This document shows, piece after piece, positions 45,705-64,000 of a stretch of DNA of 64,000 nt. Each line of letters opens with the position of its first letter. Within the stretch, counting starts at the first letter, position 1. Below the pieces are notes generated by a model. That model made no database searches and was not told where the DNA came from. It was given only the letters and a program-made list of their open reading frames with translations. Both the position numbers and the translations under genes were made by a program. The stretch spans positions 147,202 to 211,201 of IMG/VR virus record IMGVR_UViG_3300049846_000628; one strand, written 5' to 3'. This DNA comes from a virus.

Positions 45705-46543
45705 AAAACCTCCTTTAAGAAGTTTTCCATTGGAGACTTCTTAAAGATTTCAAGACCTTTTTCTGCTTGTGCGTCAAGTTCTTCTGGTTTCTTGAGAAGT
45801 CTGTAAGCAGTATCCACAAAACGATTGTAAGTTGAAGTGAATACCGTGTCTTCCATATAATCAGGGAAGTCTGTATCAGGGTTTCTTTCTGCAAGAACTG
45901 GAACTTTGTTTTGAATCAAATGAGATACACGAACCATTTCAAAGATTTGATTATCGTGATTATGAAGGTTGATGACTAACTTTGCTCTCTTGATATATTC
46001 ATCTCGTTCATCACCATAAGTTGATTGAATATGAACAAAGTTCAGTTTTGGATTGTTTGAAAACTGCTCCATAATATGAACTCTTCGTGGTGAAGGGCAT
46101 CCATAAAACAGAATATCAATATCACGGTCTTGTGGTTTATTTCTTTCAAAGTATGAAATCTCTGGAACATAACCAATCTTACAGTACTTAATATTCTCCA
46201 CACCTGCCTTTTGAAGAACCTCTACATTACGAAGAGAATAATCCCATACTTCAAGACCACGATACTTACGACACCAACGCATACACTCTGGTTGGTCTTT
46301 CATTTGTTCCAGAGAATAAACAATTGTTCCTTTTGGAATATCATGTCTTACCACATCAACAGGACAGTGATGCATTCCAAACACGATATTTCTTCGGTCT
46401 GATGCAAATTGATTTGTGCTATTTGTTACATCATGTCCCAATCGTTGTAGAGAAAAAAACATTGCTGCTTCAATCTCATGAAAGACTTGTGCGTGAACAT
46501 CAAATCCATTATCAGGAACAATTCTTACTAAATTAAATTTCAC
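45701..46543 (-). CDS. Glycosyltransferase (GT-B-like, glycan_trans_1 type)
   Basis: Likely GTG start at 46543 (VKFNLVRIVPDNG), leaving an 11-base overlap with the upstream gene; an ATG at 46576 overlaps by 44. Has IVYSLEQMKDQPECM, FYGCPSPRRVHIMEQF, IKRAKLVINLHNHDNQIFEM and VRVSHLIQNKVPVLAE, the acceptor/donor region of short GT-B enzymes. Substrate unknown; part of the sugar cluster. Confidence 0.75.
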   Translation of the reverse strand: MKFNLVRIVPDNGFDVHAQVFHEIEAAMFFSLQRLGHDVTNSTNQFASDRRNIVFGMHHCPVDVVRHDIPKGTIVYSLEQMKDQPECMRWCRKYRGLEVWDYSLRNVEVLQKAGVENIKYCKIGYVPEISYFERNKPQDRDIDILFYGCPSPRRVHIMEQFSNNPKLNFVHIQSTYGDERDEYIKRAKLVINLHNHDNQIFEMVRVSHLIQNKVPVLAERNPDTDFPDYMEDTVFTSTYNRFVDTAYRLLKKPEELDAQAEKGLEIFKKSPMENFLKEVL

Positions 46544-47966
46544 GGATAAACTCTCCAAAATTCTTTTTAATTTCATTAATGAGATTTATATCTCCAGCAA
46601 CTACACCCAATCCATTACAATGCCCAAAGTTTGTTTTAGGTAAATTAATTTCTTTAAAGAATCTACTCACACCAAACTTAGGGTCATCAACCATAGTATC
46701 ATGCATTAATATTATACCATTTTCTTTTACAAATGGAATCCACTTTTCAAAATCATTTCTGACTGCTTCATAAGTATGAAGACCATCAATATGCAAAATA
46801 TCAATTGGTTTATTCCAAGTTTTAACAACATCGTCAAAGAACCCTTTGATAATTGTAACATTATTCAATTCAAGTTCTTTAACTTTATCTCTCACATATT
46901 CATAAGTATCTCTTTCTCCAGCACAAATATCTCCTTCAAAACTATCAATACCATAAACTTGACCGATTTCTGGAAGTGCAAAACAGAATGTTGAGTATCC
47001 ATAATCCACACCCAAATCAACAATTGTTTCTGGTTGCTTTCTACGAACTAACCAATCTGCAAACTGTCTATGGTCTCTCCAGTTGAATAAGTTTTTACTT
47101 CCAACTTCCATTAATACATCTAACTTATTCCTATTATATTTCGTCTCATCTTTTTCAACATCATCACGATACATTTCTGGAGGATAATAAGTGAAGTATC
47201 TTTCAAGACCTTGATTATCGTATTGATGATGACGACGATAATGGAAACAATGTTGCTTTGGAAGTCCTGTAGCCATCCATAATTCAAAACAATAACGATA
47301 GTTCTGTAACTCTCTCATCATTGCTTCTACATCCATATACTCTTCAATTTTGAGTGGATGCTTCAGTTTGCGGATGTAATCATTTCGTGCCCACCAGAAG
47401 TTTCCTGCATAATGTTGAACAACAAAATCAAGTTTGATGTCGTGTCTTTCTACCCAGTCAACACCACAACAATCATAACCTTCGTCTAGTTTTGCAATAC
47501 AGTCTTCCCACTTTTCAATATTATAATACTGCATATAGTGTCTCCAGTCCTTGATCGCACCAGGAATATGGGTTGAATAAGAACTCATTCCTTTATTATG
47601 GAAGTAGAAGACATAACCATCCTCTTGAAGACAATGCTCATAAATCTTTGCAAGTGTTTGACCTTCATAAAGATTTGGTTGTTCCCCCACACCTCTCATA
47701 TCAATGATGTTTACAAATGGGAATCTGTCTTTGATATATCCAGTCACCATTTGGTCATATGAATGTCCTGTTTTGGAATTATAAAGACCAAGAGGTAGGG
47801 TAATACACATATTAATGGTTGCCTTATCAGCAAGACCAGTGGACTTCAACAGACTCATCTGTTCATCCACCCACCAAATCCACATATTGTTGGTGTCTGG
47901 AATATAAAGATGATAGAAAACTGCGATAGTTTTTGGATTTTTCTTTTCGTTAGTATAATTCAACAT
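46533..47966 (-). CDS. Fusion protein: glycosyltransferase-like domain plus methyltransferase
   Basis: 477 aa, ATG at 47966. Starts with the tag MLNYTN and a linker. Residues about 13-280 read as a glycan-related domain (IAVFYHLYIPDTNNMW, GYVFYFHNKGMSSYS, DWRHYMQYYNIEKWEDC, FWWARNDYIRKLKHP), as in proteins that annotate as 'DUF' glycosyltransferases. From about 315 a class I methyltransferase follows (ETIVDLGVDYGYSTF, VYGIDSFEGD, DILHIDGLHTYEAV, ILMHDTMVDDP), related to the 45075 protein. Confidence 0.78.
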   Translation of the reverse strand: MLNYTNEKKNPKTIAVFYHLYIPDTNNMWIWWVDEQMSLLKSTGLADKATINMCITLPLGLYNSKTGHSYDQMVTGYIKDRFPFVNIIDMRGVGEQPNLYEGQTLAKIYEHCLQEDGYVFYFHNKGMSSYSTHIPGAIKDWRHYMQYYNIEKWEDCIAKLDEGYDCCGVDWVERHDIKLDFVVQHYAGNFWWARNDYIRKLKHPLKIEEYMDVEAMMRELQNYRYCFELWMATGLPKQHCFHYRRHHQYDNQGLERYFTYYPPEMYRDDVEKDETKYNRNKLDVLMEVGSKNLFNWRDHRQFADWLVRRKQPETIVDLGVDYGYSTFCFALPEIGQVYGIDSFEGDICAGERDTYEYVRDKVKELELNNVTIIKGFFDDVVKTWNKPIDILHIDGLHTYEAVRNDFEKWIPFVKENGIILMHDTMVDDPKFGVSRFFKEINLPKTNFGHCNGLGVVAGDINLINEIKKNFGEFIREI

Positions 47967-48655
47967 ACAATATTACTCTTAATGTGTCCAACAATAATGT
48001 TGGGGTCTACATAAACCTTATGACCCTGCTCTGCGACCCTCTCACAGAAGTATAAGTCTTCTCCAAGTGGAAGTTCATAAGTTACTCCATCTACCTCTTG
48101 AATGACCTTCCCAAGACCAAACCAGGGTCTTTTGAGTGATTCAAAGACACCAGACTTGATGCACATAAATCCCATACCAACACCATAAACTTCAATCGGT
48201 TCTCCTAGTTGTTGAAGAAGTTGAAGTTCTTCTCTTGTGGTTGGTTTAAAATCATTTTTTTGTTTGTGTATCATTGCATCATTTCCCTGTGCCTCAAAGT
48301 ACACAGCAGAAATAACTGACTTATCACTTGCATAAAGTCTTAGAAACTGCTCTGGATTCCAGACAATATCACTATCAATACAGAAGATTTTATCATAAGT
48401 GTATTGACCTTTACCTGGTGCAGAATTAAAGACTTCTAGATTTCTTGAACCTGTAATCGTTGCTTCTCTTGCATTTGTAATAATAGAAGCATACTCGTTC
48501 TGGTATAACCAAGAAATATTATTTGCTTGAAGTGTATGAATCGTTGCGAGCAGACACTTTACATAGTCCGCACACATTGAATTACCTGGAGTTGTAATCA
48601 CCACATTAAAATGTGGTTTTGTCTCTTGTTGCTGTGAATTAGAATAATTTAGCAT
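47960..48655 (-). CDS. GT-A glycosyltransferase with MLNYSN tag
   Basis: 231 aa with ATG at 48655; the frame is open to 48712 but that would overlap the next gene heavily. Starts MLNYSNSQQQ, then FNVVITTPGNSMCADYVKCL and IFCIDSDIVWNPEQF, where DSD is the DxD metal motif, and GVGMGFMCIKSGVFESL. Similar to 48661-49383. Part of the glycan cluster. Confidence 0.8.
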   Translation of the reverse strand: MLNYSNSQQQETKPHFNVVITTPGNSMCADYVKCLLATIHTLQANNISWLYQNEYASIITNAREATITGSRNLEVFNSAPGKGQYTYDKIFCIDSDIVWNPEQFLRLYASDKSVISAVYFEAQGNDAMIHKQKNDFKPTTREELQLLQQLGEPIEVYGVGMGFMCIKSGVFESLKRPWFGLGKVIQEVDGVTYELPLGEDLYFCERVAEQGHKVYVDPNIIVGHIKSNIVC

Positions 48656-48660
48656 AAGAT

Positions 48661-49383
48661 TTAAATAGTAATCATTTTCTGGTGACCGACACGAACTTTT
48701 GGATGAACCCAAATATCAAACCCATACTTGCGGAAGTCTTCACACATAGAGATGTCTTCAGAGCAGACATCTTCAAGAATAGTCCCATCTGGTTTCTTGA
48801 GTTGAATCACTCTCGGAACAAACCAAGGATAAGGAATTTTTTCATAGACACCTTTCTTAATCAACATCCAACCAAAACCACAATAATCTACTTTAAAAGG
48901 TTCTGTTCTGCGAGACATATCTTCAACAGTCTCATACTTATTAGAACCTTTCTCATAAAGTTCTTGTTGATTCATTCTTTCTACAACAGTAGATTGATTG
49001 GAAAGAATCCCACCATTTGATTGAACATACCAACCAGCAGCAATATCCTTATTCATTTTAAGAAGTTCAATCAGGTCTTCTGTCTTGAAGATAATATCAC
49101 TATCAATCCACATAATATAATCATAAGGAACCTGTCCTCTAAAAGGAGTGAGCATCGTTCCTGCATAATTATCTGCCTGCAAACAATCAGTTCGTGCGTG
49201 ATTCACCATTGAACTGTATTGTTGGGAGATATAAAAATTAATTCCTTGTTGATTCAGGTCAAACAGTAATCTTATGAACTGAGTCATAAAAGTTCCAGAA
49301 TACATCAATCCTGGAAGACAGAAAGCAATGGTTTTTCCTTTAAGACTTGTACTTGTCGTTTGATTTGTATAATTCAGGGGCAT
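48661..49383 (-). CDS. GT-A glycosyltransferase with MPLNYTN tag
   Basis: 240 aa, ATG at 49383. Starts MPLNYTNQTT, then IAFCLPGLMYSGTFMTQFI, YIMWIDSDIIFKTEDLIELL with the DSD motif, and YCGFGWMLIKKGVYEKI. Paralogue of the 47960 protein. First gene of the sugar operon, just downstream of the fibre gene 49429. Confidence 0.8.
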   Translation of the reverse strand: MPLNYTNQTTSTSLKGKTIAFCLPGLMYSGTFMTQFIRLLFDLNQQGINFYISQQYSSMVNHARTDCLQADNYAGTMLTPFRGQVPYDYIMWIDSDIIFKTEDLIELLKMNKDIAAGWYVQSNGGILSNQSTVVERMNQQELYEKGSNKYETVEDMSRRTEPFKVDYCGFGWMLIKKGVYEKIPYPWFVPRVIQLKKPDGTILEDVCSEDISMCEDFRKYGFDIWVHPKVRVGHQKMITI

Positions 49384-49428: not shown

Positions 49429-52400
49429 TTACCACCAGGTAATTTTTACGTATCCATTTCCACCATCACCACCAACACCAAATTTGTTTTGTTCTATGGA
49501 GTATCCACCTCCACCTCCACCACCACCACGAGTTCCATTTCCTCCGTGTCCTGCTGCTGATGCTGTGGTGTCTGATGCTGTTATAAGTCCACCACTAGTA
49601 CCACCAGATACAAAAAGATTATTACCAAAAATAATATTATTTAAAACAAAAGAAACCCCAGTAGTTCTAGCAATCCACACAATAGTATCAGTTGAAGTTC
49701 TCAATTGAGAAGAATCACCACATAAAACATAGATATTATTCCCATATGTAAGTCCCCTTAAAGTATTTCCAGAAAATCCAACAGTTCTTAATTGCCAAGT
49801 GATTGCATCAGTTGAGATATTTACAGTCATGGGGAAAGTACCACCACCAGCAACATAGAGATTGTTTGCGTAGGTGATCGCAGTAATACCATTAGAACCA
49901 AAACTAGCAGTTCTTAAGGTCCAGGTGATTGTATCTGTTGAGGTGTTTAATACTCCAGAAGCACCACCAGCAACATAAGTATTGTTTCCAAAAGTGATAT
50001 TATTAATAGCATTACCACCAAAACCAGAAGTTCTTAAGGTCCAAGTAATTGTGTCTGTTGATGTACTTAACCTTCCACTAATACCACCAACAATATGAAT
50101 ACCATTACCAAAAGTAAGAGTATACCAAGTACCACCATACCCAGAAGTTCTTAACTCCCAAGTGATTGCGTCTGTTGAAGTGTTTAATGTTCCACCATTA
50201 TCTGCAGTGATATAAGTATTGTTTGCAAAAATAATAGCATTAATACTCGCAGTAGAATTCCCAGAAGTTCTTAAGGTCCAAGTGATTGCGTCTGTTGAAG
50301 TATTTAATGTACCATTAGCACCAGCAGCAACATAAGTATTGTTTCCAAAAGTGATATTATTAATAGCATTACCACCAAAACCAGCAGTTCTTGCATACCA
50401 ACTATTAATTCCAGTGCTCAAAGCACCTCCACCACCTCCACCAGAACCATAAGACCCAGTATAACTTCCAGGAATACCATCAGCACCATTACCACCAGTA
50501 TTACTTCCACCACTCGTTGTAGCAGTATTTCCATAATAATAAGAAACTGAATTACCTCCTGTATTGGTATTATATGCTCCTCCTCCACCACCAGAAACTT
50601 GGAATGCACTTGCTTGTGTAGAAGAGTTTGAAGTTGCTAATGCTGATAATCCAGCACCACCAGCACCACCAGCAGTAGTATAAAGATTATTTGTTGTTGC
50701 AACTAAAGATGAACCTTGGGTTCCTGCTGTGGTTGCTGTATCACTTGCTCCACCACCAGTAGCAGCAGTTAATTGATAAGTCGCAGTACCTGTTGGAGTA
50801 TTTCCAATCCAAGTAACACTTGATCCACTACCAGAACTTCCACCACCAGAACTAACACCACCAGCAACAAAGACTGTTCCGTATGTGAGTGCGTTGATGT
50901 TTTGTGCCTTAAAGAGTGAGGTTCTTTGCGTCCAAGTGATTGTGTCTGTAGATGATGCAAGAACTCCAGAAGCACCTGCTGTTATGTAGAGATTGTTTGT
51001 GTATGAGAGGGCATTTAATTGTGTGGTGGTTCCTGAAGTTCTTAAAGTCCAAACAATTGTATCTGTTGAGGTTACTATGACTCCAAGAGTACTACCAGCA
51101 ACATAAAGATTATTTCCAAATATTAATCCTAATATAGTATTAATTATTCCAGAAGTTCTTAAAGTCCATTGAATTGCGTTTGTTGAAGTGTTTAATACTC
51201 CAGAATCACCAGCAACAACATAAGTATTATTTGCAAAAGTGAGAGCATAAAAAGTTTGTGCAGTATTTGAAGTTCTTAAAGTCCAGGTGATTGCGTCTGT
51301 TGAAGTAAGTAATCTTCCAGCAGGGCAACCAGCAACGTAAGTATTATTTGCAAAAACAAGAGCATTATGAGATACAGTAGTACCAGCAGTTCTTAAAGTC
51401 CAAATAATTGTGTCCGTTGAAGTTATCAGTCTACCAGCATTATCACCTGCAACATAAGTATCAGTAGGACTATTACCATAAGTTAACGATGAAAAAGTTG
51501 TAATTGAAGAATAACCAGTTGTTCTAATTCTCCAAGTAACTCCATTATCAGTAGATACTGTAATTCCAGATGCCGTAAAAAGTGCAACATAGTATGGATT
51601 ATTATACAATAGTTTTTGAACTGAATAAGTAAGACCAGATCCACCAGGAACAGTCTCCCATACAATTCCATCAGTACTCGTACTCATTCCACGATTGTTT
51701 CCACCACGACCACCAGCACCAACAGTCACGGTCATCGTAGAAGCACTTCCAAGTTCTCCACGACGAATTAACCAAGAATTATAAGCACCAGAACCACCAC
51801 CACCACCAGAACCTAATGTTCCCGTAACTCTTCCTGATGCTCCGCCTCCACCACCACCGATTGCTTCAATGTAAAACTGGGTTGCTGTTGGAGGAATAAA
51901 GAATGTTCCAGAACTTGTGAATTCTTGAGAACCTTTGTATGATACTGGGTCTTGTGGTGTGGTTGTTGTAGCATTTATGGGTTCCCAGATTTTTTGAGTT
52001 GCTTGGGAAGTTATTATTTCACCACCACCAACAAATGCAGTATAAGCATTGTTTGCAAAAACTATTCCATTAATAGAATTAGTAACTAAAGAAGTTCTTA
52101 TGGACCAAATAATAGTATCTGTTGAAGTAATTAATGTTCCATTAGAACCACCAGCAACGTAAGTATTATTTCCATAAGTAAGATTTCTTATATTTTGACC
52201 AGTACCAGTAGTTCTTAAGGTCCAAGTGATTGCATCGGTTGAGGTACTTAATTTTCCAGAACCACCACCAGCAACATAAGCGTTATTAAGAAAATTGAGA
52301 ACGATAATAGCATCACCACCAAAACCAGAAGTTCTTGCGACCCATACAATTCCATTTATTGAAGTCTTTATAATTCCAGCAACACCACCAGCAACATAAG

Positions 52401-52971
52401 TATTATTTGCAAAAGTAACACTTTGAATATATTGAGAACCACCAAAGTTAGAAGTTCTTAAGGTCCAAGTAATAGCATCTGTTGAAGTGTTTAATACTCC
52501 ACTATCACCAGCAGCAATATAAAGATTATTAGCAAAAGTAAGAGCATAAATGATAGTAGTAGCAAAACCAGAAGTTCTTAAGGTCCAAGTGATTGCGTCT
52601 GTTGAAGTGTTTAAGATACCAGAAAAACCACCAGCAACATAAAAAGTTGAATAAGTAAGAGCATTGATATTAGAGAGACCAAATCCAGAAGTTCTTGAAG
52701 TCCAGGTAACTGCGTCTGTTGAGGTATTCAATCTTCCAGAAACACCACCAGCAACATAAAAAGTTGTGTAAACATTAGCACCTAAACCTGACACAGAACC
52801 AGAAGTCCTCAACACCCAATACTGAGCACCAGGATAAACTGCTAAAAATCTTCCAGCATTTCCAGTTAAACTTGGAAGAGCATTATCATCAAGATATTGA
52901 CGATTTACAGCATCAGTCGTACCAGATACTACACTTACACTAGTAACCTTATTGCTGTCTAATGTTGCCAT
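49429..52971 (-). CDS. Giant repeat fibre protein with Asp-box arrays and glycine-rich tip
   Basis: 1180 aa, ATG at 52971. N-terminal TTDAVNRQYLDDNALPSL matches the other two fibres. About 19 degenerate Asp-box repeats of roughly 38 residues (core STDAITWTLRTSG ... NNTYVAGG) form three arrays, at the N-terminus, after GAGGRGGN, and near the C-terminus, set into a Gly-rich module (IEAIGGGGGGASG; GYVKITWW end). One repeat is a canonical Asp-box STDNGVTW (51532-51558). Such repeats fold as beta hairpins or propeller blades. Likely an adsorption fibre. Confidence 0.8.
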   Translation of the reverse strand: MATLDSNKVTSVSVVSGTTDAVNRQYLDDNALPSLTGNAGRFLAVYPGAQYWVLRTSGSVSGLGANVYTTFYVAGGVSGRLNTSTDAVTWTSRTSGFGLSNINALTYSTFYVAGGFSGILNTSTDAITWTLRTSGFATTIIYALTFANNLYIAAGDSGVLNTSTDAITWTLRTSNFGGSQYIQSVTFANNTYVAGGVAGIIKTSINGIVWVARTSGFGGDAIIVLNFLNNAYVAGGGSGKLSTSTDAITWTLRTTGTGQNIRNLTYGNNTYVAGGSNGTLITSTDTIIWSIRTSLVTNSINGIVFANNAYTAFVGGGEIITSQATQKIWEPINATTTTPQDPVSYKGSQEFTSSGTFFIPPTATQFYIEAIGGGGGGASGRVTGTLGSGGGGGSGAYNSWLIRRGELGSASTMTVTVGAGGRGGNNRGMSTSTDGIVWETVPGGSGLTYSVQKLLYNNPYYVALFTASGITVSTDNGVTWRIRTTGYSSITTFSSLTYGNSPTDTYVAGDNAGRLITSTDTIIWTLRTAGTTVSHNALVFANNTYVAGCPAGRLLTSTDAITWTLRTSNTAQTFYALTFANNTYVVAGDSGVLNTSTNAIQWTLRTSGIINTILGLIFGNNLYVAGSTLGVIVTSTDTIVWTLRTSGTTTQLNALSYTNNLYITAGASGVLASSTDTITWTQRTSLFKAQNINALTYGTVFVAGGVSSGGGSSGSGSSVTWIGNTPTGTATYQLTAATGGGASDTATTAGTQGSSLVATTNNLYTTAGGAGGAGLSALATSNSSTQASAFQVSGGGGGAYNTNTGGNSVSYYYGNTATTSGGSNTGGNGADGIPGSYTGSYGSGGGGGGALSTGINSWYARTAGFGGNAINNITFGNNTYVAAGANGTLNTSTDAITWTLRTSGNSTASINAIIFANNTYITADNGGTLNTSTDAITWELRTSGYGGTWYTLTFGNGIHIVGGISGRLSTSTDTITWTLRTSGFGGNAINNITFGNNTYVAGGASGVLNTSTDTITWTLRTASFGSNGITAITYANNLYVAGGGTFPMTVNISTDAITWQLRTVGFSGNTLRGLTYGNNIYVLCGDSSQLRTSTDTIVWIARTTGVSFVLNNIIFGNNLFVSGGTSGGLITASDTTASAAGHGGNGTRGGGGGGGGYSIEQNKFGVGGDGGNGYVKITWW

Positions 52972-53000
52972 TGTCTTCTATCTTCCATAAGGGTATTTAT

Positions 53001-54776
53001 TTACCACCAGGTAATCTTCACGTAACCATCACCACCATTTCCACCAGAACCAAAAGTAGAACCGATAGAAGCACCACCACCTCCACCACCACCACGAGCA
53101 CCATTTCCACCAGTTGCTGCAATAGAAACACTTGCACCTCCACCACCTCCACCAGAACCATAAGGAAGTCCAGAGATTACAATAGCATTAGTTCCATTTG
53201 TTCCTGTAGAGTCTCCACCAGATGCTGATGTTGTGATTCCATATACGTTGATTACTCCACCAGAACCACCAGCACTTGAAGTAGAACCAGCACCACTTCC
53301 ACCACCTGTTGGTTGGAATTGATTAGTTTGTGCTGTTGCTGTGATACCTATTCCTGGAGATTGATTTGCCCCAGAAAGTCCTGCAGTGGTATAAAAAGAA
53401 CTTGATTGACTTGTGAGTTGTGCTGCTCCTGCTGCTGTTCCAGAACCACCAGATGCTGTGATTGTATAAGTTCCTCCAGGTCCAGTCCAGGATACTGTGG
53501 TTCCTGCTCCTGCTGAACCTGTTGCTGCGTCTGTGGTTGCTCCTGCTCCACCAACACCAGGATTGATTGTGAGGTTTGATGATACAATTGCTTTTGGAAT
53601 ATACCAGGAAGTATAAGAACCTGCACCTCCTCCTGCTCCTGATGCTTGGGAGTATGAGGTGTGTAATGAAGTTGGACCACCTGAACCTGAAAAAAGGAAT
53701 GTATTGTTTCCATAAGTAGAACTTATTAATAATGTCGTACTAACAAAAGTTCTTAAGGTCCAAGTGATTGCGTCTGTTGAAGTATTGAGTCTTCCCGAAT
53801 CACCACCAGCAACATAAATGTTGTTTCCAAAGGTAAGAGTACGAATATTATTAGCACCAAAACCAGAAGTTCTCAGAGTCCAAGTGATTGCGTCTGTTGA
53901 GGTATTTAAGACTCCACTATTACCACCAGCAACATAAAAAGTTGTATAAGTAAAAACATTAATAGTAGTATTAAACCCAGAAGTTCTTAAGGTCCAAGTG
54001 ATTGCGTCTGTTGAAGTGTTTAAGATACCAGAAAAACCACCAGCAAGAAAAATACCATTTCCAAAACCAACAGAAGACGAACCTCCAATACCTCCACCAG
54101 TTCTCAGAGTCCAATTTATGGTATCGGTTGATGATTCTAAAGGTAGACCAGTACCAGTGGCGAGGTAAATACTATTTCCAAAGGTAATTCCAGTTACCAT
54201 ACCTGCAGTAGTTCTCAATATCCAAGTGATTGTATCTGTCGATGTAGTTAAAAATACATTTCCACCAACAAAATAATTACCATTAAGATACTCTGCAGAA
54301 GATGGACTAGTATTGAATACAGCAGTTCTCAAAATCCAAGAAATTGCATCTGTTGATACGACTATTGTGTTAGAATTTACTCCAGAAATAAACAGAGAAT
54401 TTCCAAAAGTAACATTACCACCACCAGAACTAGATATGTTTATAGCAGTTCTAATTGTCCAAGTAACTCCTGCCTGTGCTGTTGTCTGCCCCGCACTTCC
54501 TCCACCGCCAGCACCAACTGCTTCAATAAACAAAAGGTTTGTATAACTTGGAACTGTAAAAGTCTGTGCTCCAGTTGATGTAAATTCCTGATAGTTAGAA
54601 ACATAATCCCAAGAAAGACTTGTTCCATCAGTTGTAAGTAAAAACTTACCAGCATTACCAGTTTGTGATGGTAAGGGTTGTGCATTAGCATCTACATAAT
54701 CCTTATTGACTACATCAGTTGAAGCAAAGACTGTTGTAGTAATACCAGAAATAAAATTAGAACCTGCGGTAGTCAT
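53001..54776 (-). CDS. Repeat fibre protein with one Asp-box array and glycine-rich tip
   Basis: 591 aa, ATG at 54776. Starts TTAGSNFISGITTTVFAS, TDVVNKDYVDANAQPLPSQ, then QEFTSTGAQTFTVPSYTNLL and IEAVGAGGGG. One array of about 6 Asp-box repeats is inserted at this point; the glycine-rich module then runs uninterrupted to GGNGGDGYVKITWW. The simplest of three relatives, so it may show the ancestral module. The Gly-rich part recalls polyglycine receptor-binding tips of phage fibres. Confidence 0.8.
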   Translation of the reverse strand: MTTAGSNFISGITTTVFASTDVVNKDYVDANAQPLPSQTGNAGKFLLTTDGTSLSWDYVSNYQEFTSTGAQTFTVPSYTNLLFIEAVGAGGGGSAGQTTAQAGVTWTIRTAINISSSGGGNVTFGNSLFISGVNSNTIVVSTDAISWILRTAVFNTSPSSAEYLNGNYFVGGNVFLTTSTDTITWILRTTAGMVTGITFGNSIYLATGTGLPLESSTDTINWTLRTGGGIGGSSSVGFGNGIFLAGGFSGILNTSTDAITWTLRTSGFNTTINVFTYTTFYVAGGNSGVLNTSTDAITWTLRTSGFGANNIRTLTFGNNIYVAGGDSGRLNTSTDAITWTLRTFVSTTLLISSTYGNNTFLFSGSGGPTSLHTSYSQASGAGGGAGSYTSWYIPKAIVSSNLTINPGVGGAGATTDAATGSAGAGTTVSWTGPGGTYTITASGGSGTAAGAAQLTSQSSSFYTTAGLSGANQSPGIGITATAQTNQFQPTGGGSGAGSTSSAGGSGGVINVYGITTSASGGDSTGTNGTNAIVISGLPYGSGGGGGGASVSIAATGGNGARGGGGGGGASIGSTFGSGGNGGDGYVKITWW

Positions 54777-54790
54777 TTAGTTATCCTCCT

Positions 54791-57700
54791 TTAGTACCAA
54801 CTGATACGAACATATCCATCACCACCAGTTCCTCCAGTACCTGCGGTGTTTGTGGTTTCTTCATATCCACCTCCACCACCTCCACCACCTTTAGAACCAG
54901 CACCTCCTGCTCCTGCGGTAATTGTTGGTGAAGTATATAATGCTCCAGTTAGACCAGCAGCAACATAAGTATTATTTCCGTATGTGAAAGCATACGGAGT
55001 AGGATTAGACCCTACAGTTCTTGCAGTCCAAACAATTGCGTCTGTAGATGCATGTAATCTAAATGTTCCACCATAAAGATATAAATTATTTTGATAGATA
55101 AGGGCATTAATACCAGAACTCTCACTAGAAGTTCTTAAAGTCCAAGTGATTGCGTCTGTTGAAGTAGTTAATACTCCAGAAGCACCAGCAGAAACATAAA
55201 TATTATTTCCAAAAGTAAATGCATTAATATTATTAGTAGCAAACCCAGAAGTTCTTAAAGTCCAAGTGATTGCGTCTGTTGAAGTGTTTAATACTCCAGA
55301 AGAACCACCAGCAACATAAAAAGTTGTGTAAATAAGAACATTAAGTTGAGTAGTAGCACTAGAAGTTCTTAAAGTCCAAGTGATTGCGTCTGTTGAAGTA
55401 TTTAATGTTCCAGAAACACCACCAGCAACATAAGTATTATTTCCAAAAGTAAGAGCATTAATACCCAAAGGTAATCCAGAAGTTCTTAAAGTCCAAGTGA
55501 TTGCGTCTGTTGAAGTGTTTAATACTCCAGAAGAACCACCAGCAACATAAAAAGTTGTGTAAATAAGAACATTAAGTTGAGTAGTAGCACTAGAAGTTCT
55601 TAAAGTCCAAGTGATTGCGTCTGTTGAAGTATTTAATGTTCCAGAAACACCACCAGCAACATAAGTATTATTTCCAAAAGTGAGAGCATAAAGATTATTA
55701 CCACCAGTATTAGAAGTTCTTGTAGTCCATAAAAGTGCATTATCACTTGCAGCACCTCCACCACTTCCACCACCACCATAAGAAAGTCCAGTAACATTAG
55801 GTCCTAAACTTCCATTCACTTCAATTGATGTATTTGCTGCTGTGTTTGCATAATAATTAATCGTTCCTGCACCACCACCAAGAACACCAGCATTTACATT
55901 ATAAACAATTGAATGAGAACCAGAACCACCACCAGTTGTTTGATATGAAAGTGTTGATGTTGCTGCTGCCGTTGGTGTTGTACCTGGATAAAGAGAAGAT
56001 GCACCAGCAGCACCTGCACTTGCTCTTAAGTAATTAAAGTTTCTATTTGGAACTGTACCACCAGCACCAGCACCATAAGCAGTAGCACCAGAACCACCAT
56101 TCGCAGTGACTGTATAAGTTCCAGCAGGTCCAGTCCAGGATACTGTAGTGTTTGAACCTGCTTGTGCTGATAGGTCTAGTGCTGTGAGAGTTCCTGATTC
56201 TCCTCCAGCAAGATAAGTATTGTTTCCAAAAGTAAGAGCATAAATGAAATTAGTACCAAATCCAGAAGTTCTTAAAGTCCAAACAATTGCATTTGTTGAA
56301 GTGTTTAATACTCCTCCACTACCAGCAACAAAGTAATTACCGTTTTGGTAAATGAAATTACTATAAATTCCATTAGTACCAAATCCAGAGGTTCTTAAAG
56401 TCCAAACAATTGCATCTGTTGATGTTACTAAACTAGCAGTTCCTCCACCAGAAGGAACTGAACCTGCAAGATATAGATTATTTGCATAAAAAACACTTTT
56501 AACTTGATTAGTTACTAATGAAGAAGTTCTTAAAGTCCATTCAATTGCATTTGTTGAAGTGATTATTATTCCATTAAGACATCCAGCAACATAAGTATTA
56601 TTTCCAAAAGTAATAGAATAAATTGTATCTAAACCAATACCAGCAGTTCTTAAAGTCCAAGTGATTGCGTCTGTTGAAGTATTAATTTTTCCATTATCAC
56701 CACCAACAACATAAGTATTGTTTGCGAAAGTAAGAACATTAATTTGAGTAGTACCAAACCCAGAAGTTCTTAAGATCCAAGTGATTGCGTCTGTTGAAGT
56801 GTTTAATGGACTAGGAAAACTACCACCAAGAATATAGAATGATGTATAGAGGAGAGTACGAACAGAAGCAATAGCACCAGAACCAGCAGTTCTTAAGGTC
56901 CAAGTGATTGTGTCTGTTGACGTAATTAATCTTCCACTAAGACCACCAACAACATAAAGATTACTTGCATAAATTGCTGATAGATAAATTGATGTAGTAC
57001 CAGAAGTTCTTAAAGTCCAACTATTAGATATGTTTTGCCCACCACCAGTTCCACCAGCACCAACACTTACATTAAATGAAGACCCTGTGATTTGAGTTCT
57101 ATCAAGTTCCCAAGTCACTGATGCTCCACCCCCACCACCAGGACCACCAGAACCAAGACGAACTGGAGAAGCAGAAAGAGCACCAGAAGCACCAGCAGTT
57201 ATAAAGGTATTACCGACACCAACATCACCAATTAAGTTTGCGGTAGTACCAGAAGTTCTTGCAATCCAAGTAATTGCATCTGTTGAGGATAAAATACGTC
57301 CAGAGTCTCCATTTGCTACATAAGTGGAACCACTGAAAGAAAGACCACGAAGAATTGATGTTGTACCTGAAGTTCTTAGAGTCCAAGTATTAGAATCCGT
57401 AGAAGTTACAATTGCACCAGAACCACCAGCAGCAACATAAAGATTGTTTCCATAAACAACTGCATTTAGGTTTTGTGTGGTATTTGATACTATTGCACCA
57501 CTTGCAGTCCAAATAATTGCATCAGTAGAAGTATTAATTGCTCCACTATTACGAACCGCAACATAATTACTTGAAGGTGTTGCAGTATATACTAAACCAT
57601 TAATTGAATTTGATGTATCTGTTGTAGTTCTAAAAGACCAAGTAATTGTGTCTGTGGATGTTTGAAGAACACCGTTTTGTACTAGGTCTGTAAGACTTGA

Positions 57701-60091
57701 ATAAGTAGCAGTGTTTAATACTCCATTAGCACCACCAGCAACATAAAGATTGTTTCCAAAAGTAAGAGCAGTAAGATTTTGTATAGTGTTTGAAGTTCTT
57801 GCAGTCCAAATAATTGTGTCTGTTGAAATACTTATTACTCCAGAATTACCCCCTACAACATAGAGATTATTTGCAAATGTAAGAGCATTAATTTGAGTAG
57901 TACCAAACCCAGAAGTTCTTATGGTCCAAACAATTGCATCTGTTGATGCAGTTATTCTCCCACCACCATGACCAGCAACATAAGTATTATTTGCATAAGT
58001 AATTACAAAAACAGTAGCATTGTTATTATTAGAAGTTCTTAAAGTCCAGATGATTGCGTCTGTTGAAGTGTTTAATACTCCAGCAGCACCACCAGCAACA
58101 TAAAGACCACCACCATAACCAAAAGAATTAACAGCATTGCTACCAAATCCAGAGGTTCTTAAAGTCCAAGTAATTGCATCTGTTGAGGTACTTAATGTTC
58201 CAATATTAGCACCAGCAACATAAGTATTGTTTACAAAAGTAAGAGCATTAAGAGTTTGTGTTATACCAGAAGTTCTTAAAATCCAAGTGATTGCATCTGT
58301 TGAAGTGTTTAGTACTCCAAAACTACCACCAGCAAGATAAGTATTGTTTCCGTAAGAACTTGCAAGTAGAATAGCCGAACCATTAAATGCAAAAGTTCTT
58401 AAAGTCCAAGTGATTGCGTCTGTTGAGGTTGCTATCGTATTATTACTACTAGTAATAAGATAAGAATTTGTTTGGTCTGAGGCATAACTAATAGTATTAA
58501 TACCACCAAGACCTAAACCAGAAGTTCTTGCAGTCCACTGAACCGTAGGAGTTCCTAAATTACCCCCAGCAACATAAACATTACCATAAACAACACTGTT
58601 AATCGTTGCATTACCAAACCCTGTAGTTCTCAATAACCAATTGATTCCATCTGTAGTTACTGAAATTCTACCACCATTACCAAGTATATCACTACCTCCC
58701 GCAACAATATAATCGTTACTGGTTCCTATACTATTAATTGTTTGACTTAGAGTAGTTGTGCGAAGTATCCAATATATGGTGTCTGTAGAAGTGGAGAAAT
58801 ATGCACCGAATCCTTCATCATTCGTTAATGTAGAATAATTTGAGGTGTGTAATACTCCAGAAGCACCACCAGCAAGATAAATATCATTTCCAAAGGTAAG
58901 TGCATTCACTTGAGCATTAGAAAGAGAAGTTCTTAAGGTCCAAGTGATTGTGTCTGTTGAGGTAGTTAATATTCCACTCCCACCACCAGCAACATAAAGA
59001 TTGTTTGCGTAGGTGAGAGCATTAAAAATAGTAGTACCACTAGTAGTTCTCAGTACCCAAGTGATTGCATCTGTTGAGGTGCTTACTCTTCCAGCAGCAC
59101 CACCACAATACAAATATAAACTATTTGCAAAAATAAGAGTATTAATTTGACTCGCAGAACCAGAAGTTCTTAAAGTCCAGATGATTGCGTCTGTTGAAGT
59201 GTTTAATACTCCAGCAGCACCACCAGCAACATAAAGACCACCACCATAACCAAAAGAATTAACAGCATTGCTACCAAATCCAGAGGTTCTTAAAGTCCAG
59301 ATGATTGCGTCTGTTGAGGTTATTAATTTTCCAGTTTGACCACCAGCAACATAAGTGTTGTTTGCAAAAGTAAGTGCATTAATTTGACCAGTACCAAACC
59401 CAGTAGTTCTTGTACTCCAAGTGATTGCATCTGTTGATGTAGTTAAAAATTCATTTACACCGCCAGCAAAAAGACCTGCAATTATGTAAAGATTATTTGC
59501 ATAAGAAATTACCCAATTAACATTAGTATTACCTGAAGTCCTTGCTATCCAAACGATTGCATCCGTTGAAGTTCTTAAGTTTCCACCATTACCAACAACA
59601 AAATAAGTATTATTTTCATAAGTAAGACCATTAAGGGGAGAAGTAGTACCAGAAGTCCTTAAAGTCCAATAAAAAATTCCTGCTCCAGTTCCACCTAAAA
59701 GGAATGAATTATTTCTAAATCCAAGCGCATTCAGTTGTGTAGTTGTTCCCGCAGTTCTTAGTGACCACAAAGAACCAGGAACATATGCAGACAACATTGC
59801 ATTTCCACTTTCTCCACCACCACCAGCACCCGTTGCTTCAATCGTAAATTTCTTTGCTTGTGTTGGAAAGTTAAAAGTATAAGACCCTGCTGCAGTATAT
59901 TCTTGACTTGCCTGTATTGGTTCCCACGATACTGTGCTTCCATCCGTAAAGAGAAACTCATTCTCATTACCGTAAATGGTTGGAAGTGCTGCTCCTAATC
60001 TATTATCAACATACTCTTTGTAAGCAGCATCAGTACCACTTGTTGCTGTGGAAACTCCAGTGATTGAACTTAGACCTACAACAACAGGCAT
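54791..60091 (-). CDS. Giant repeat fibre protein with about 30 Asp-box repeats
   Basis: 1766 aa, ATG at 60091, one base after the stop of the next upstream gene region. Opens SSITGVSTATSGTDAAYKE, YVDNRLGAALPTI, then EYTAAGSYTFNFPTQ and IEATGAGGGGES. Arrays of Asp-box repeats sit at three places of the Gly-rich module, totalling about 30 copies; the C-terminus ends GGDGYVRISWY. Contains a 206-bp and a 138-bp perfect DNA duplication. Length variation by recombination seems likely. Probable host-recognition fibre. Confidence 0.8.
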   Translation of the reverse strand: MPVVVGLSSITGVSTATSGTDAAYKEYVDNRLGAALPTIYGNENEFLFTDGSTVSWEPIQASQEYTAAGSYTFNFPTQAKKFTIEATGAGGGGESGNAMLSAYVPGSLWSLRTAGTTTQLNALGFRNNSFLLGGTGAGIFYWTLRTSGTTSPLNGLTYENNTYFVVGNGGNLRTSTDAIVWIARTSGNTNVNWVISYANNLYIIAGLFAGGVNEFLTTSTDAITWSTRTTGFGTGQINALTFANNTYVAGGQTGKLITSTDAIIWTLRTSGFGSNAVNSFGYGGGLYVAGGAAGVLNTSTDAIIWTLRTSGSASQINTLIFANSLYLYCGGAAGRVSTSTDAITWVLRTTSGTTIFNALTYANNLYVAGGGSGILTTSTDTITWTLRTSLSNAQVNALTFGNDIYLAGGASGVLHTSNYSTLTNDEGFGAYFSTSTDTIYWILRTTTLSQTINSIGTSNDYIVAGGSDILGNGGRISVTTDGINWLLRTTGFGNATINSVVYGNVYVAGGNLGTPTVQWTARTSGLGLGGINTISYASDQTNSYLITSSNNTIATSTDAITWTLRTFAFNGSAILLASSYGNNTYLAGGSFGVLNTSTDAITWILRTSGITQTLNALTFVNNTYVAGANIGTLSTSTDAITWTLRTSGFGSNAVNSFGYGGGLYVAGGAAGVLNTSTDAIIWTLRTSNNNNATVFVITYANNTYVAGHGGGRITASTDAIVWTIRTSGFGTTQINALTFANNLYVVGGNSGVISISTDTIIWTARTSNTIQNLTALTFGNNLYVAGGANGVLNTATYSSLTDLVQNGVLQTSTDTITWSFRTTTDTSNSINGLVYTATPSSNYVAVRNSGAINTSTDAIIWTASGAIVSNTTQNLNAVVYGNNLYVAAGGSGAIVTSTDSNTWTLRTSGTTSILRGLSFSGSTYVANGDSGRILSSTDAITWIARTSGTTANLIGDVGVGNTFITAGASGALSASPVRLGSGGPGGGGGASVTWELDRTQITGSSFNVSVGAGGTGGGQNISNSWTLRTSGTTSIYLSAIYASNLYVVGGLSGRLITSTDTITWTLRTAGSGAIASVRTLLYTSFYILGGSFPSPLNTSTDAITWILRTSGFGTTQINVLTFANNTYVVGGDNGKINTSTDAITWTLRTAGIGLDTIYSITFGNNTYVAGCLNGIIITSTNAIEWTLRTSSLVTNQVKSVFYANNLYLAGSVPSGGGTASLVTSTDAIVWTLRTSGFGTNGIYSNFIYQNGNYFVAGSGGVLNTSTNAIVWTLRTSGFGTNFIYALTFGNNTYLAGGESGTLTALDLSAQAGSNTTVSWTGPAGTYTVTANGGSGATAYGAGAGGTVPNRNFNYLRASAGAAGASSLYPGTTPTAAATSTLSYQTTGGGSGSHSIVYNVNAGVLGGGAGTINYYANTAANTSIEVNGSLGPNVTGLSYGGGGSGGGAASDNALLWTTRTSNTGGNNLYALTFGNNTYVAGGVSGTLNTSTDAITWTLRTSSATTQLNVLIYTTFYVAGGSSGVLNTSTDAITWTLRTSGLPLGINALTFGNNTYVAGGVSGTLNTSTDAITWTLRTSSATTQLNVLIYTTFYVAGGSSGVLNTSTDAITWTLRTSGFATNNINAFTFGNNIYVSAGASGVLTTSTDAITWTLRTSSESSGINALIYQNNLYLYGGTFRLHASTDAIVWTARTVGSNPTPYAFTYGNNTYVAAGLTGALYTSPTITAGAGGAGSKGGGGGGGGYEETTNTAGTGGTGGDGYVRISWY
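55245..55681. repeat. 206-base perfect direct duplication
   Basis: 55245-55450 and 55476-55681 are identical by my reading, offset 231 bases (77 codons, two repeat units), so the reading frame is kept. Confidence 0.85.
58031..59299. repeat. 138-base perfect duplication, dispersed
   Basis: 58031-58168 and 59162-59299 are identical, offset 1131 bases (377 codons). Both encode the same segment around GYGGGLYVAGGAAGVLNTST, in different arrays of the same protein. Confidence 0.82.
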
Positions 60092-60092
60092 A

Positions 60093-63000
60093 TCAACCCT
60101 CCTCCAGTCTTCTCTTCAGTTCTTGTATCTCTTTGTTTTGTTCTTTGATTGCTTCAATCAAGAGACCTACAATGTTTCCATAAGCAACTGATTTAGTTTC
60201 ATTATTTGGTGCTGGTTGTTTTGGATATACAACCTCAGGAATAATCTCTTCAACTTCTTGTGCAATCACACCAATTTGTTTATCTCCATTATCTATACGA
60301 GTAAATTCAACTCCTCTGAGAGATAGAACTTTTTCAAGAGCATTTTCAATTGTTTGAACATCTGTCTTCAGTTTTTTATCGGAGTTTGCTGTGACTGTAC
60401 CACCAGCAACTAAGTTTCCTGTTGATGGGTTGAATGTGAGTTTTGTAGATGATACATTAATAGATGTAACTGTCCCACTTGTAGCATCATCAAATAAAAC
60501 ATAACGTGTTGCGTTTGTTGAAGTATCATCAGTAACCGTTAGACCAGCACTAATACCAGTTAAGCTTGAACCATCTCCAAAATAAGTAACACCAATACCA
60601 CCTACTGTTGCACCTGTTCCAACTGGTGTGATGCGGAAGTTTCCAATCGTTGAAATACCAGAAATTGAAAGTCCAGTACCAACAATGTTATCTGAGATTG
60701 TGATTGTTGCAATACCTGTAGCAGCAGTAGCAGTAGCAATTACATTAGAACCAACGAAGTTTAACTGAGATATACTATTAGCAGCACCAATGATTGTACC
60801 TTCATCTCTAACTGTTAAACCAGTAATAGCATTGGATGGTGCCGCATTAACCCAAGAAGGAGCACTAGTTCCTCCATTAGACTGTAATATTTGTCCAGAA
60901 GAACCGTTTGCTAAGAATGCCGTTGTGTCAGCAGCAGATTGGTAAACAATTGTTCCACCAGATCCACCTTTGAGGTTTGTTGATATACCAGCACTAGTAG
61001 CGAAAGTTGCTATGCCTGCTACATTAGAATATCCTGAGAACGTAGAGAATCCTGATGTATTTGAGTATCCTGAGAACGTAGAGAACCCAGAAACACCAGA
61101 GTAGGTTGATACTCCAGCCGTTACTGCATAAGTAGAAACACCTGATGTATTTGAGTATCCAGAGAAGGTAGAGAATCCTGATGTATTAGCGTATCCAGAG
61201 AAAGTAGAAACACCTGATGTATTAGCGTATCCTGAGAACGTAGAGAATCCTGATGTATTTGAGTATCCTGAGAAAGTAGAGAACCCAGAAACACCAGAGT
61301 AGGTTGATACTCCAGCCGTTACTGCATAAGTAGCAATACCAGATACGTTAGCGTATCCAGAGAAGGTAGAGAACCCAGAAACACCAGAGTAGGTTGATAC
61401 TCCAGCCGTTACTGCATAAGTAGAAACACCTGATGTATTAGCGTACCCAGAGAAGGTAGAGAATCCAGATACGTTAGCGTATCCAGAGAAAGTAGAAACA
61501 CCTGATGTATTAGCATAAGTAGCAATACCAGATACGTTAGCGTATCCTGAGAAAGTAGAAACACCTGATGTATTAGCATAAGTAGCAATACCAGATACAT
61601 TAGCGTACCCAGAGAAGGTAGAGAATCCAGATACGTTAGCGTATCCAGAGAACGTAGAGAATCCAGATACATTAGAATAAGTTGCTACACCTGCTACATT
61701 AGAATACCCAGAGAACGTAGAGAATCCAGATACATTAGCGTACCCAGAGAAGGTAGAGAATCCAGATACGTTAGCGTATCCAGAGAAAGTAGAAACACCT
61801 GATGTATTAGCGTATCCAGAGAACGTAGAGAATCCAGATACATTAGAATAAGTTGCTACACCTGCTACATTAGAATACCCAGAGAACGTAGAGAATCCAG
61901 ATACATTAGCGTACCCAGAGAAGGTAGAGAATCCAGATACGTTAGCGTATCCAGAGAAAGTAGAAACACCTGATGTATTAGCATAAGTAGCAATACCAGA
62001 TACGTTAGCGTATCCTGAGAAAGTAGAAACACCTGATGTATTAGCATAAGTAGCAATACCAGATACGTTAGCGTATCCTGAGAAAGTAGAAACACCTGAT
62101 GTATTTGAGTATCCAGAGAACGTAGAGAATCCAGATACATTAGCGTACCCAGAGAAGGTAGAGAATCCAGATACATTAGAATAAGTTGCTACACCAGATG
62201 CATTAGAATAAGTTGCTACACCTGCTACATTAGAATACCCAGAGAACGTAGAGAATCCTGATGTGTTAGAGTACCCAGAGAACGTAGAGAATCCAGATAC
62301 ATTAGAATAAGTTGCTACACCAGATGCATTAGAATAAGTTGCTACACCTGCTACATTAGAATACCCAGAGAACGTAGAGAATCCAGATACGTTAGCGTAT
62401 CCTGAGAAGGTAGAGAATCCTGATGTGTTAGAGTACCCAGAGAACGTAGAGAATCCTGATGTGTTAGAGTACCCAGAGAACGTAGAGAATCCTGCTACAT
62501 TAGCATAAGTTGCGCTTGTAGCATTACCGCTAAATGATGCAGCAGTAATAATACCAGAGGCATTAATATTCCTTACAACTGCTAAGTCTCTTTCTGTAAA
62601 TTGAACTGAACCAGCAGCAAGTCTGGTTCCTGATGGGAATTGTGTTGAACCAATACCAATCGCGTAGTTACTTAACCAAGCGTCAGTATTCAGTCCAGCA
62701 AAAGCACCTGCCTGGAACCACATAAATTTCTTATATGTGGCGGGTAAGGACTCACCAATTGCTACATTAACAAGTTGAACTAATGGATTTCCTTCAGTAG
62801 ATGCAATTGCAATACCACCGTGATTTGCTGTAGTATCTGTAGAAGCATCTTGATTTGAACTGTTAGTAGTAAATCCAAGGATTATATCAGCATCACTAAC
62901 TCTAAAATCCTGTACGATAACATAAGCAGATGTACCACCAACAGTAATATTACCAGTTACATTTAAATTATTGTTAACTTGTAAATCATTTCCAATTGTT

Positions 63001-64000
63001 ACATTTCCACCAATGGTTGGGTTTGGTGAAAAAGAGATAACAGGCGTTGAACCTTCGCCAGTTCCTCCAGTAACAGTTATTTGACCTACAGTTCCAGAAA
63101 TTGACTGAACATAATCTCCAGTAGTGTCACTACCTAAAGCAACACTATTAGGTTGAATAGTTGCCGCTAATGATACATTACCAGTTCCATTGAAACTGAT
63201 TGGAGACGCAATAATATCACCAGTGATTTCGAATGTTCTTGAGTTTTGAAGTGCGGTCGCTACACCTGCCGTGGAAGCATAAGTAGCAATACCACTTGAG
63301 GTTGCATAAGTTGCTACACCTGCCGTGGAAGCATAAGTAGCAATACCACTTGAGGTTGCATAAGTTGCTATACCAGCATAAGTAGCATAAGTTGCTATAC
63401 CAGCATTAGTAGCATAAGTTGCTATACCAGCATAAGTAGCATAAGTTGCTATACCACTTGAGGTTGCATAAGTTGCTATACCACTTGAGGTTGCATAAGT
63501 TGCTATACCAGCATTAGTAGCATAAGTTGCTATACCAGCATAAGTAGCATAAGTTGCTATACCAGCATTAGTAGCATAAGTTGCTACACCTGCCGTGGAA
63601 GCATAAGTAGCAATACCACTTGAGGTTGCATAAGTTGCTATACCAGCATTAGTAGCATAAGTTGCTATACCAGCATAAGTAGCATAAGACACAATACCAG
63701 CATTAGTAGCATAAGTTGCTACACCTGCCGTGGAAGCATAAGTAGCAATACCAGCATAAGTAGCATAAGTTGCTATACCAGCATAAGTAGCATAAGTTGC
63801 TACACCTGCCGTGGAAGCATAAGTAGCAATACCAGCATTAGTAGCATAAGTTGCTATACCAGCATAAGTAGCATAAGTTGCTATACCAGCATAAGTAGCA
63901 TAAGTTGCTACACCTGCCGTGGAAGCATAAGTAGCAATACCAGCATTAGTAGCATAAGTTGCTATACCAGCATAAGTAGCATAAGTTGCTATACCAGCAT
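60093..64000 (-). CDS. Very long repeat fibre with C-terminal S74 chaperone (partial, runs off right edge)
   Basis: Open from the stop at 60093 to the window edge, so the N-terminus is outside. From the N side: a 9-residue repeat (AGIATYATN type), a beta fibre domain (QNSRTFEITGDIIASPISF, IGGNVTIGNDLQVNNN), a 12-residue repeat (SGFSTFSGYANV type, about 40 copies), another beta domain, and an S74 domain (SDKKLKTDVQTIENALEKV, GVIAQEVEEIIPEV, YGNIVGLLIEAIKEQ). S74 drives trimerisation and self-cleavage. Likely the long tail fibre. Confidence 0.82.
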   Translation of the reverse strand, partial: AGIATYATYAGIATYATNAGIATYASTAGVATYATYAGIATYATYAGIATYATNAGIATYASTAGVATYATYAGIATYATYAGIATYASTAGVATYATNAGIVSYATYAGIATYATNAGIATYATSSGIATYASTAGVATYATNAGIATYATYAGIATYATNAGIATYATSSGIATYATSSGIATYATYAGIATYATNAGIATYATYAGIATYATSSGIATYASTAGVATYATSSGIATYASTAGVATALQNSRTFEITGDIIASPISFNGTGNVSLAATIQPNSVALGSDTTGDYVQSISGTVGQITVTGGTGEGSTPVISFSPNPTIGGNVTIGNDLQVNNNLNVTGNITVGGTSAYVIVQDFRVSDADIILGFTTNSSNQDASTDTTANHGGIAIASTEGNPLVQLVNVAIGESLPATYKKFMWFQAGAFAGLNTDAWLSNYAIGIGSTQFPSGTRLAAGSVQFTERDLAVVRNINASGIITAASFSGNATSATYANVAGFSTFSGYSNTSGFSTFSGYSNTSGFSTFSGYANVSGFSTFSGYSNVAGVATYSNASGVATYSNVSGFSTFSGYSNTSGFSTFSGYSNVAGVATYSNASGVATYSNVSGFSTFSGYANVSGFSTFSGYSNTSGVSTFSGYANVSGIATYANTSGVSTFSGYANVSGIATYANTSGVSTFSGYANVSGFSTFSGYANVSGFSTFSGYSNVAGVATYSNVSGFSTFSGYANTSGVSTFSGYANVSGFSTFSGYANVSGFSTFSGYSNVAGVATYSNVSGFSTFSGYANVSGFSTFSGYANVSGIATYANTSGVSTFSGYANVSGIATYANTSGVSTFSGYANVSGFSTFSGYANTSGVSTYAVTAGVSTYSGVSGFSTFSGYANVSGIATYAVTAGVSTYSGVSGFSTFSGYSNTSGFSTFSGYANTSGVSTFSGYANTSGFSTFSGYSNTSGVSTYAVTAGVSTYSGVSGFSTFSGYSNTSGFSTFSGYSNVAGIATFATSAGISTNLKGGSGGTIVYQSAADTTAFLANGSSGQILQSNGGTSAPSWVNAAPSNAITGLTVRDEGTIIGAANSISQLNFVGSNVIATATAATGIATITISDNIVGTGLSISGISTIGNFRITPVGTGATVGGIGVTYFGDGSSLTGISAGLTVTDDTSTNATRYVLFDDATSGTVTSINVSSTKLTFNPSTGNLVAGGTVTANSDKKLKTDVQTIENALEKVLSLRGVEFTRIDNGDKQIGVIAQEVEEIIPEVVYPKQPAPNNETKSVAYGNIVGLLIEAIKEQNKEIQELKRRLEEG
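61010..62515. repeat. 36-base tandem repeat zone
   Basis: The plus strand alternates variants of CCAGAGAACGTAGAGAATCC; encodes SGFSTFSGYANV-type 12-residue units with Ala-Thr-Tyr variants (SGIATYAN). Confidence 0.85.
61636..61982. repeat. 171-base tandem duplication in long fibre gene
   Basis: 61636-61811 and 61807-61982 are identical, offset 171 bases (57 codons). It lies in the 12-residue repeat zone of the 60093 gene. Confidence 0.82.
63250..64000. repeat. 27-base tandem repeat zone at right edge
   Basis: Variants of AGCATAAGTTGCTATACC repeat every 27 bases and continue beyond the window; they encode AGIATYATN-type 9-residue units. Confidence 0.85.

Follow-up and report, generated by a model that had tools for sequence, protein, structure and literature searches.

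Seven-bladed Asp-box propellers, some of them nested, inserted in one glycine-rich module of three putative tail-fibre proteins of a T4-like cyanophage

The tip of Pam3 gp24 (PDB 7YPX) and gp38 of Salmonella phage S16 (6F45) have glycine-rich loops that follow the fibre axis to a variable distal end, the proposed site of receptor binding (PMC9608196). GGGGxGG motifs are present in both and also in the modules described here; unlike the proteins of this study, no propellers have been described in their loops, and no significant sequence match was found between our module and Pam3 gp24. With a profile of the three modules, the only solved homologue was the tail wing brush protein gp33 of mycobacteriophage Bxb1 (9d93, E 9e-5), which is a polyproline-II bundle like the S16 gp38 tip (PMC13243192); it has 267 aa and lacks propeller insertions. 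The Pfam domain PF21722 (Gly_rich_2) matches all three modules once their arrays are taken out, that of P0002 over essentially its whole length, but it is a 226-position model without room for inserts, and the domain studied here is split by one to three arrays of 270-870 aa. For the arrays, the Asp-box propellers of YCF48 (2xbg, 5oj5) share the propeller fold and the layout of strand C plus Asp-box, but identity is only 17-18%, the Asp-box is usually one residue shorter in our proteins and the propellers are fibre inserts. Beta-propeller lectins of eCIS are likewise binding domains on tail-derived fibres, but they are joined to collagen shafts, and the passages on them describe neither insertion in glycine-rich loops nor nesting (PMC12923769).

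The window analysed is a stretch of 64,000 nucleotides, the last 64 kb of the 211,201-base virus record IMGVR_UViG_3300049846_000628. It was assigned to a T4-like cyanophage because the closest relatives of one tail protein in it are those of cyanophages S-SRM01 (60% identity), S-SKS1 and P-SSM2. Three ORFs of 1180, 591 and 1766 aa (P0001, P0002 and P0003), at 49429-60091 on the minus strand, come after a fibre gene with an S74 chaperone domain, which places them in a fibre setting. As originally predicted, an N-terminal region is common to the three, and so is a glycine-rich module that starts with QE(F/Y)T and has GYV(K/R)I(T/S)W at its end. Their parts are the following:

49429..52971, minus strand: P0001, 1180 aa; N-terminal region, linker propeller, and two further propellers in loops B and C of the Gly_rich_2 module
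52825..52971, minus strand: P0001 N-terminal region, aa 1-49, with related regions in P0002 and P0003; putative attachment end
52006..52824, minus strand: 7-blade propeller in the P0001 linker, aa 50-322, ahead of the glycine-rich module
51670..51930, minus strand: P0001 Gly_rich_2 segment 1 (SQEFT...), aa 348-434
50848..51669, minus strand: P0001 loop-B propeller, 7 blades, aa 435-708
50410..50847, minus strand: P0001 Gly_rich_2 segment 2, aa 709-854
49570..50409, minus strand: P0001 loop-C propeller, 7 blades, aa 855-1134; closed seven-blade ring predicted
49432..49569, minus strand: P0001 Gly_rich_2 last segment, aa 1135-1180, end GYVKITWW
53001..54776, minus strand: P0002, 591 aa; one propeller, in loop A of its Gly_rich_2 module
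54471..54593, minus strand: P0002 module segment 1 (YQEFT...GAGGGG), aa 62-102
53655..54470, minus strand: P0002 loop-A propeller, 7 blades, aa 103-374
53004..53654, minus strand: P0002 module segment 2, aa 375-591; loop C empty
54791..60091, minus strand: P0003, 1766 aa; five propellers in its Gly_rich_2 module, of which three are nested in loop A and loops B and C have one each
57167..59773, minus strand: P0003 loop-A array, aa 107-975; outer 7-blade propeller with two breaks in B-C loops
58841..59674, minus strand: P0003 nested propeller 1, 7 blades, aa 140-417, within the outer propeller
57704..58543, minus strand: P0003 nested propeller 2, 7 blades, aa 517-796, within the outer propeller
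56183..57028, minus strand: P0003 loop-B propeller, 7 blades, aa 1022-1303; same loop empty in the homologue L015_+1057
54929..55738, minus strand: P0003 loop-C propeller, 7 blades, aa 1452-1721; 206-nt exact internal duplication
54794..54928, minus strand: P0003 Gly_rich_2 last segment, aa 1722-1766, end GYVRISWY

The analysis demonstrates a common module with four insertion sites, units of seven blades and, by sequence grammar, nesting. The three proteins are most likely paralogous tail-fibre or adhesin proteins, in which a Gly_rich_2 tip carries inserted seven-bladed Asp-box propellers, some of them nested. In each protein a short N-terminal region would serve for attachment and be followed by a single Gly_rich_2 domain, a polyglycine-stem tip as in Pam3 gp24 and S16 gp38, and by analogy with these two proteins (PMC9608196) the glycine-rich module is probably the receptor-binding tip. 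Self-contained propellers with a YCF48-like fold are inserted into its distal loops A, B and C and into the preceding linker. The chain appears to be opened at the Asp-box hairpin of one blade, so that it would enter the propeller as strand D and leave after strands A-B-C of that blade. Since both chain ends then emerge side by side, the propeller fits a loop, and by the same property it can be housed in the B-C loop of a second propeller, which produces nested assemblies. The propellers may act as extra binding heads at the tip, probably for glycans, each joined to its carrier loop by the Asp-box side and making contact through the variable face formed by the D-A and B-C loops. If the fibre is trimeric, as in Pam3, P0002, P0001 and P0003 would present 3, 9 and 15 heads, respectively.

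The loop-C array of P0001 was modelled with AlphaFold2 from an alignment of 100 propellers (pLDDT 95.2, pTM 0.92), and the 28 strands of the model run D, then ABCD six times over, then ABC. What had originally been called propeller-like can therefore be specified, for this array, as a predicted closed ring of seven four-stranded blades. Because the chain starts with strand D and ends with strands A-B-C, the two ends of the propeller meet at one hairpin. Solved YCF48 superposes on this model with a TM-score of 0.81, and Foldseek matches the model to propellers and to many predicted phage proteins. The whole P0002, modelled with an alignment of 8 sequences, reached a pLDDT of only 35. Among the Pfam families, PF19755 (DUF6242) is the best match of 67 of the 100 propellers; these matches are partial and, for the member listed, below the curated cut-off. 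No BNR family is among the Pfam matches listed for the propellers, and searches of NCBIfam and PHROGs produced no array-specific match.

Strand-D tryptophans number seven in P0002, 7+7+7 in P0001 and 21+7+7 in P0003, which corresponds to 7, 21 and 35 blades, or one, three and five propellers, with repeats mostly 38-41 aa long. The Asp-box (BNR) was defined by the motif S/T-x-D-x-G-x-T-W in the C-D turn of each blade. Its columns show S in 98%, D or N in about 100% and W in 100%, and most copies have a 7-residue form without the glycine, with one canonical 8-residue copy, in P0001. The strict motif occurs six times per propeller (6 in P0002, 18+1 in P0001 and 30 in P0003), which agrees with the copy numbers of about 6, 19 and 30 first reported for the arrays. 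Six boxes accompany seven blades because in one blade, that at the insertion point, the Asp-box hairpin is where the chain opens, and this blade has lost its Asp-box turn.

Mean entropy is 2.8 bits at the D-A and B-C loop columns and 1.65 at the A-B and C-D turns, a difference to which fold constraint also contributes. The D-A/B-C side of the propeller is also the side where further propellers are inserted. The propellers might provide only bulk that makes the fibre tip longer or shields it, with no ligand of their own, and the wide variation in propeller number among relatives (1 to 11 per protein) would suit such a function. We consider this unlikely, as variability is much higher on the loop face than on the Asp-box face, a pattern more in keeping with a contact surface than with a spacer. 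Sialidases contain Asp-box propellers and phage tailspikes often degrade glycans, and the propellers could on these grounds be sialidase-like glycosidases that cut host surface glycans instead of binding them. However, the RIP motif, which together with a catalytic arginine triad marks a sialidase, is absent from P0001, P0002 and P0003, and for this reason we regard an enzymatic function as very improbable; moreover, the nearest natural solved folds include YCF48, a non-enzymatic assembly factor.

The loop-A array of P0003 shows a break in a B-C loop, a complete inner propeller that begins at strand D, and a return to strand C, and this occurs twice. The outer blades are marked by W109, 441, 485, 818, 862, 903 and 942, and the inner blades span 142-384 and 519-762. 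The same nesting pattern is found in the linker of the homologues L036 and L038, and L015 shows nesting to three levels; in all nesting cases the chain leaves and re-enters the outer blade mainly at columns 22-28 of the blade, which correspond to the B-C loop. By the seven-blade grammar, some of the Asp-box arrays of the original prediction are nested propellers and not simply longer rows of repeats. Another reading of the P0003 array, as three propellers in tandem or as an uninterrupted blade solenoid without a regular size, is suggested by the 7+7 tandem arrays of relatives (loop A of L021_+5409 and several other viral proteins), but a tandem arrangement would require 8, 9 and 4 blades where nesting gives 7, 7 and 7. 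In addition, the B-C loop is where the blades on either side of the inner arrays are interrupted, and strand C is where they continue; the nesting rule also fits L015, L023, L024, L025, L028, L034, L036, L038 and the giant proteins. An array without nesting is accordingly hardly credible, and nesting is retained. DDB1 may be a known case of a propeller inserted among others and provides a lead.

In the intact proteins, Pfam detects PF21722 only piecewise in P0001 and P0002 and not at all in P0003, although intact P0001 still passes the curated cut-off (34.9 bits). After the arrays are cut out, all three modules match PF21722, with a best E-value of 2.2e-9. The array-free P0002 covers positions 1-225 of 226 (E 3.5e-9, 37.5 bits against a cut-off of 24.3), a profile match above the curated cut-off across the domain that assigns it to the family. 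The array-free modules of the IMG/VR homologues (303-371 aa) can be aligned along their whole length. Over 43 homologues, insertion is confined to four places: in the linker it comes ahead of QEFT, in loop A it follows IEA.GAGGGG, in loop B it follows VGAGG and in loop C it precedes GGNG.RGGGGGGG. P0002 uses one site (loop A), P0001 uses the linker and loops B and C, and P0003 uses loops A, B and C. The site numbers given by the original prediction, one in P0002 and three in each of the other proteins, thus stand, but one site of P0001 is in the linker, outside the module in which all of them had been placed.

Every one of the four sites is empty in some homologues, and these empty sites show that the insertions are in-frame and at fixed positions. 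At loop C, P0002 reads GGGGGGASVSIAATGGNGARGG, with no insert, whereas L014 reads GGGGGGAGVGN, followed by a propeller and then by QGTAIAATGGNGARGG; L018 and L021 also have a propeller at this position. The loop-B propeller of P0003 is missing in L015, and the site of the linker propeller of P0001 is empty in L010_+8223. Because PF21722 is matched in full without the arrays, and homologues with and without arrays in the same loops exist, the arrays are insertions in one common module: the Pfam comparison with arrays removed gave one Gly_rich_2 domain in all three proteins, as had been proposed, and not the unrelated separate domains that had been named beforehand as the contrary outcome. That glycine-rich pieces and propellers are instead separate domains strung along one chain, as the partial Gly_rich_2 matches of the intact proteins and the occurrence of each domain type alone in other phages might suggest, is extremely improbable in view of the full-length match after array removal and of the propeller-less homologues in which the flanking residues adjoin.

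Blade numbers in relatives were obtained by a Viterbi search with a blade profile, followed by a stack grammar, with a background model that includes the composition of the module. Run blind, a grammar of seven blades per propeller fits 39 of the 43 complete proteins, on which the parser had also been developed, and no protein is fitted by grammars of 5, 6, 8 or 9 blades. Of the four exceptions, three are mis-calls, caused by a native module tryptophan taken as a blade (P0003 and L033) or by a tyrosine in place of the tryptophan (L017), and one is an ORF (L019) that looks truncated. On contigs unused in building the parser, seven blades fit 15 of 26 complete proteins, six blades fit one of 26 and the other numbers none. 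This lower fraction is mostly due to tandem arrays without a detected boundary, which fail to close; several of the non-fitting proteins total 14 or 21 blades. Homologues with different array numbers, whose existence was to be checked, range from one propeller to the 11 of L059 (3,589 aa). With native tryptophans set aside, the giant relatives have 77, 70, 56 and 63 blades in 3589, 3328, 2719 and 2985 aa, respectively. One giant fibre gene (L063/L064, in G005) is divided into two ORFs at ~20.7-21.2 kb, through a frame break, an assembly error or a real split. Repeats confuse assemblers and the frame is broken in this one contig, but an artefact of metagenome assembly is an extremely improbable source of the repeat numbers, given exact multiples of seven in dozens of divergent contigs and a second IMG/VR record, perhaps from a related sample, that is 100% identical to the array region over 18,692 bp.

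P0003 contains an exact duplication of 206 nt within its loop-C propeller (aa 1471-1538 and 1548-1615), and another of 138 nt (aa 265-310 and 642-687) across two different nested propellers. Both show recent DNA exchange among blades, and since the blade count stays at seven despite this exchange, selection for ring closure is indicated. L034 and L036, which are different fibre genes in different contigs, have cassettes with 88% identity over 990 nt, and such near-identical cassettes suggest movement of whole propellers. In the propeller tree the site labels are clustered, with 40 changes against 66.9 in shuffles, but the clades are not clean and, therefore, neither pure vertical descent nor free shuffling is claimed. 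We propose tentatively, as a possibility somewhat short of an even chance, that the propeller is a plug-in cassette, which would behave in this way because its two ends meet at one hairpin. Fibre loops and other propellers would gain, lose or exchange it whole, giving branched multi-headed adhesins with up to at least 11 propellers per chain (33 per trimer), whose targets could be changed by adding or exchanging heads. The near-identical cassettes are consistent with this proposal, as are the exact duplications, which comprise whole blades and do not alter the count of seven.

The architecture is real and well supported, and it combines known folds in an arrangement that is new and recursive. 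The original prediction knew of no description of this architecture, and none of this arrangement was found among the open PMC papers searched. Fibre-tip loops with whole propellers, some nested to three levels, would be an unusual answer to the problems of protein architecture and multivalent receptor binding. Exact seven-blade quantisation despite recent exact blade duplications offers a direct way to test how a closed ring of repeats is maintained by selection, and the four sites provide a set of natural insertion points together with self-contained, putative binding heads. Propeller insertion also explains giant fibre genes of over 10 kb in uncultured cyanophages.

Other viral contigs (L094, L109, L113, L116, L120 and L121) encode propellers of this family outside any glycine-rich module, singly or in tandem rows of ~14 to 29 blades. 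The cultured Actinomycetia phage DSL-LC01 encodes a free-standing propeller of 290 aa (WJZ48562.1; L065 5989-6861, OQ999401.1) with the same start and end points as the inserted ones, but it is not an insert, and the DSL-LC01 genome has no Gly_rich_2 match. It is annotated as a 'photosynthesis system II assembly factor', probably on account of a fold like that of YCF48 and not of its function. The array-free module gave no match among cultured phages in a search in which the glycine-rich sequence was probably removed by the low-complexity filter, and the module profile found nothing in S-SRM01, P-SSM2, S-SKS1 and B23, in a search run without a positive control; no cultured phage with the full architecture was found in these searches.

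The fibre gene at 60093-63998 encodes, besides the S74 endosialidase-type chaperone domain, very long GIATYATNA / SGFSTFSGYSN repeats, and it lacks its 5' end because the contig stops within it, which truncates the fibre cluster. No match to the reverse transcriptase family PF00078 was found in the 211-kb record, which may be incomplete, and because of this the idea that the region is the target of a diversity-generating retroelement was dropped. The region adjoining the fibres at 41392-49383 contains genes encoding a family-2 glycosyltransferase, a UDP-galactopyranose mutase, a family-17 glycosyltransferase and two methyltransferase-24 proteins, and this block possibly has a role in glycan decoration of the virion or of the host surface. 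Further away, at 11478-17165, the window encodes a protein of 1895 aa with a phage tail collar domain and E1_FCCH-like stretches.
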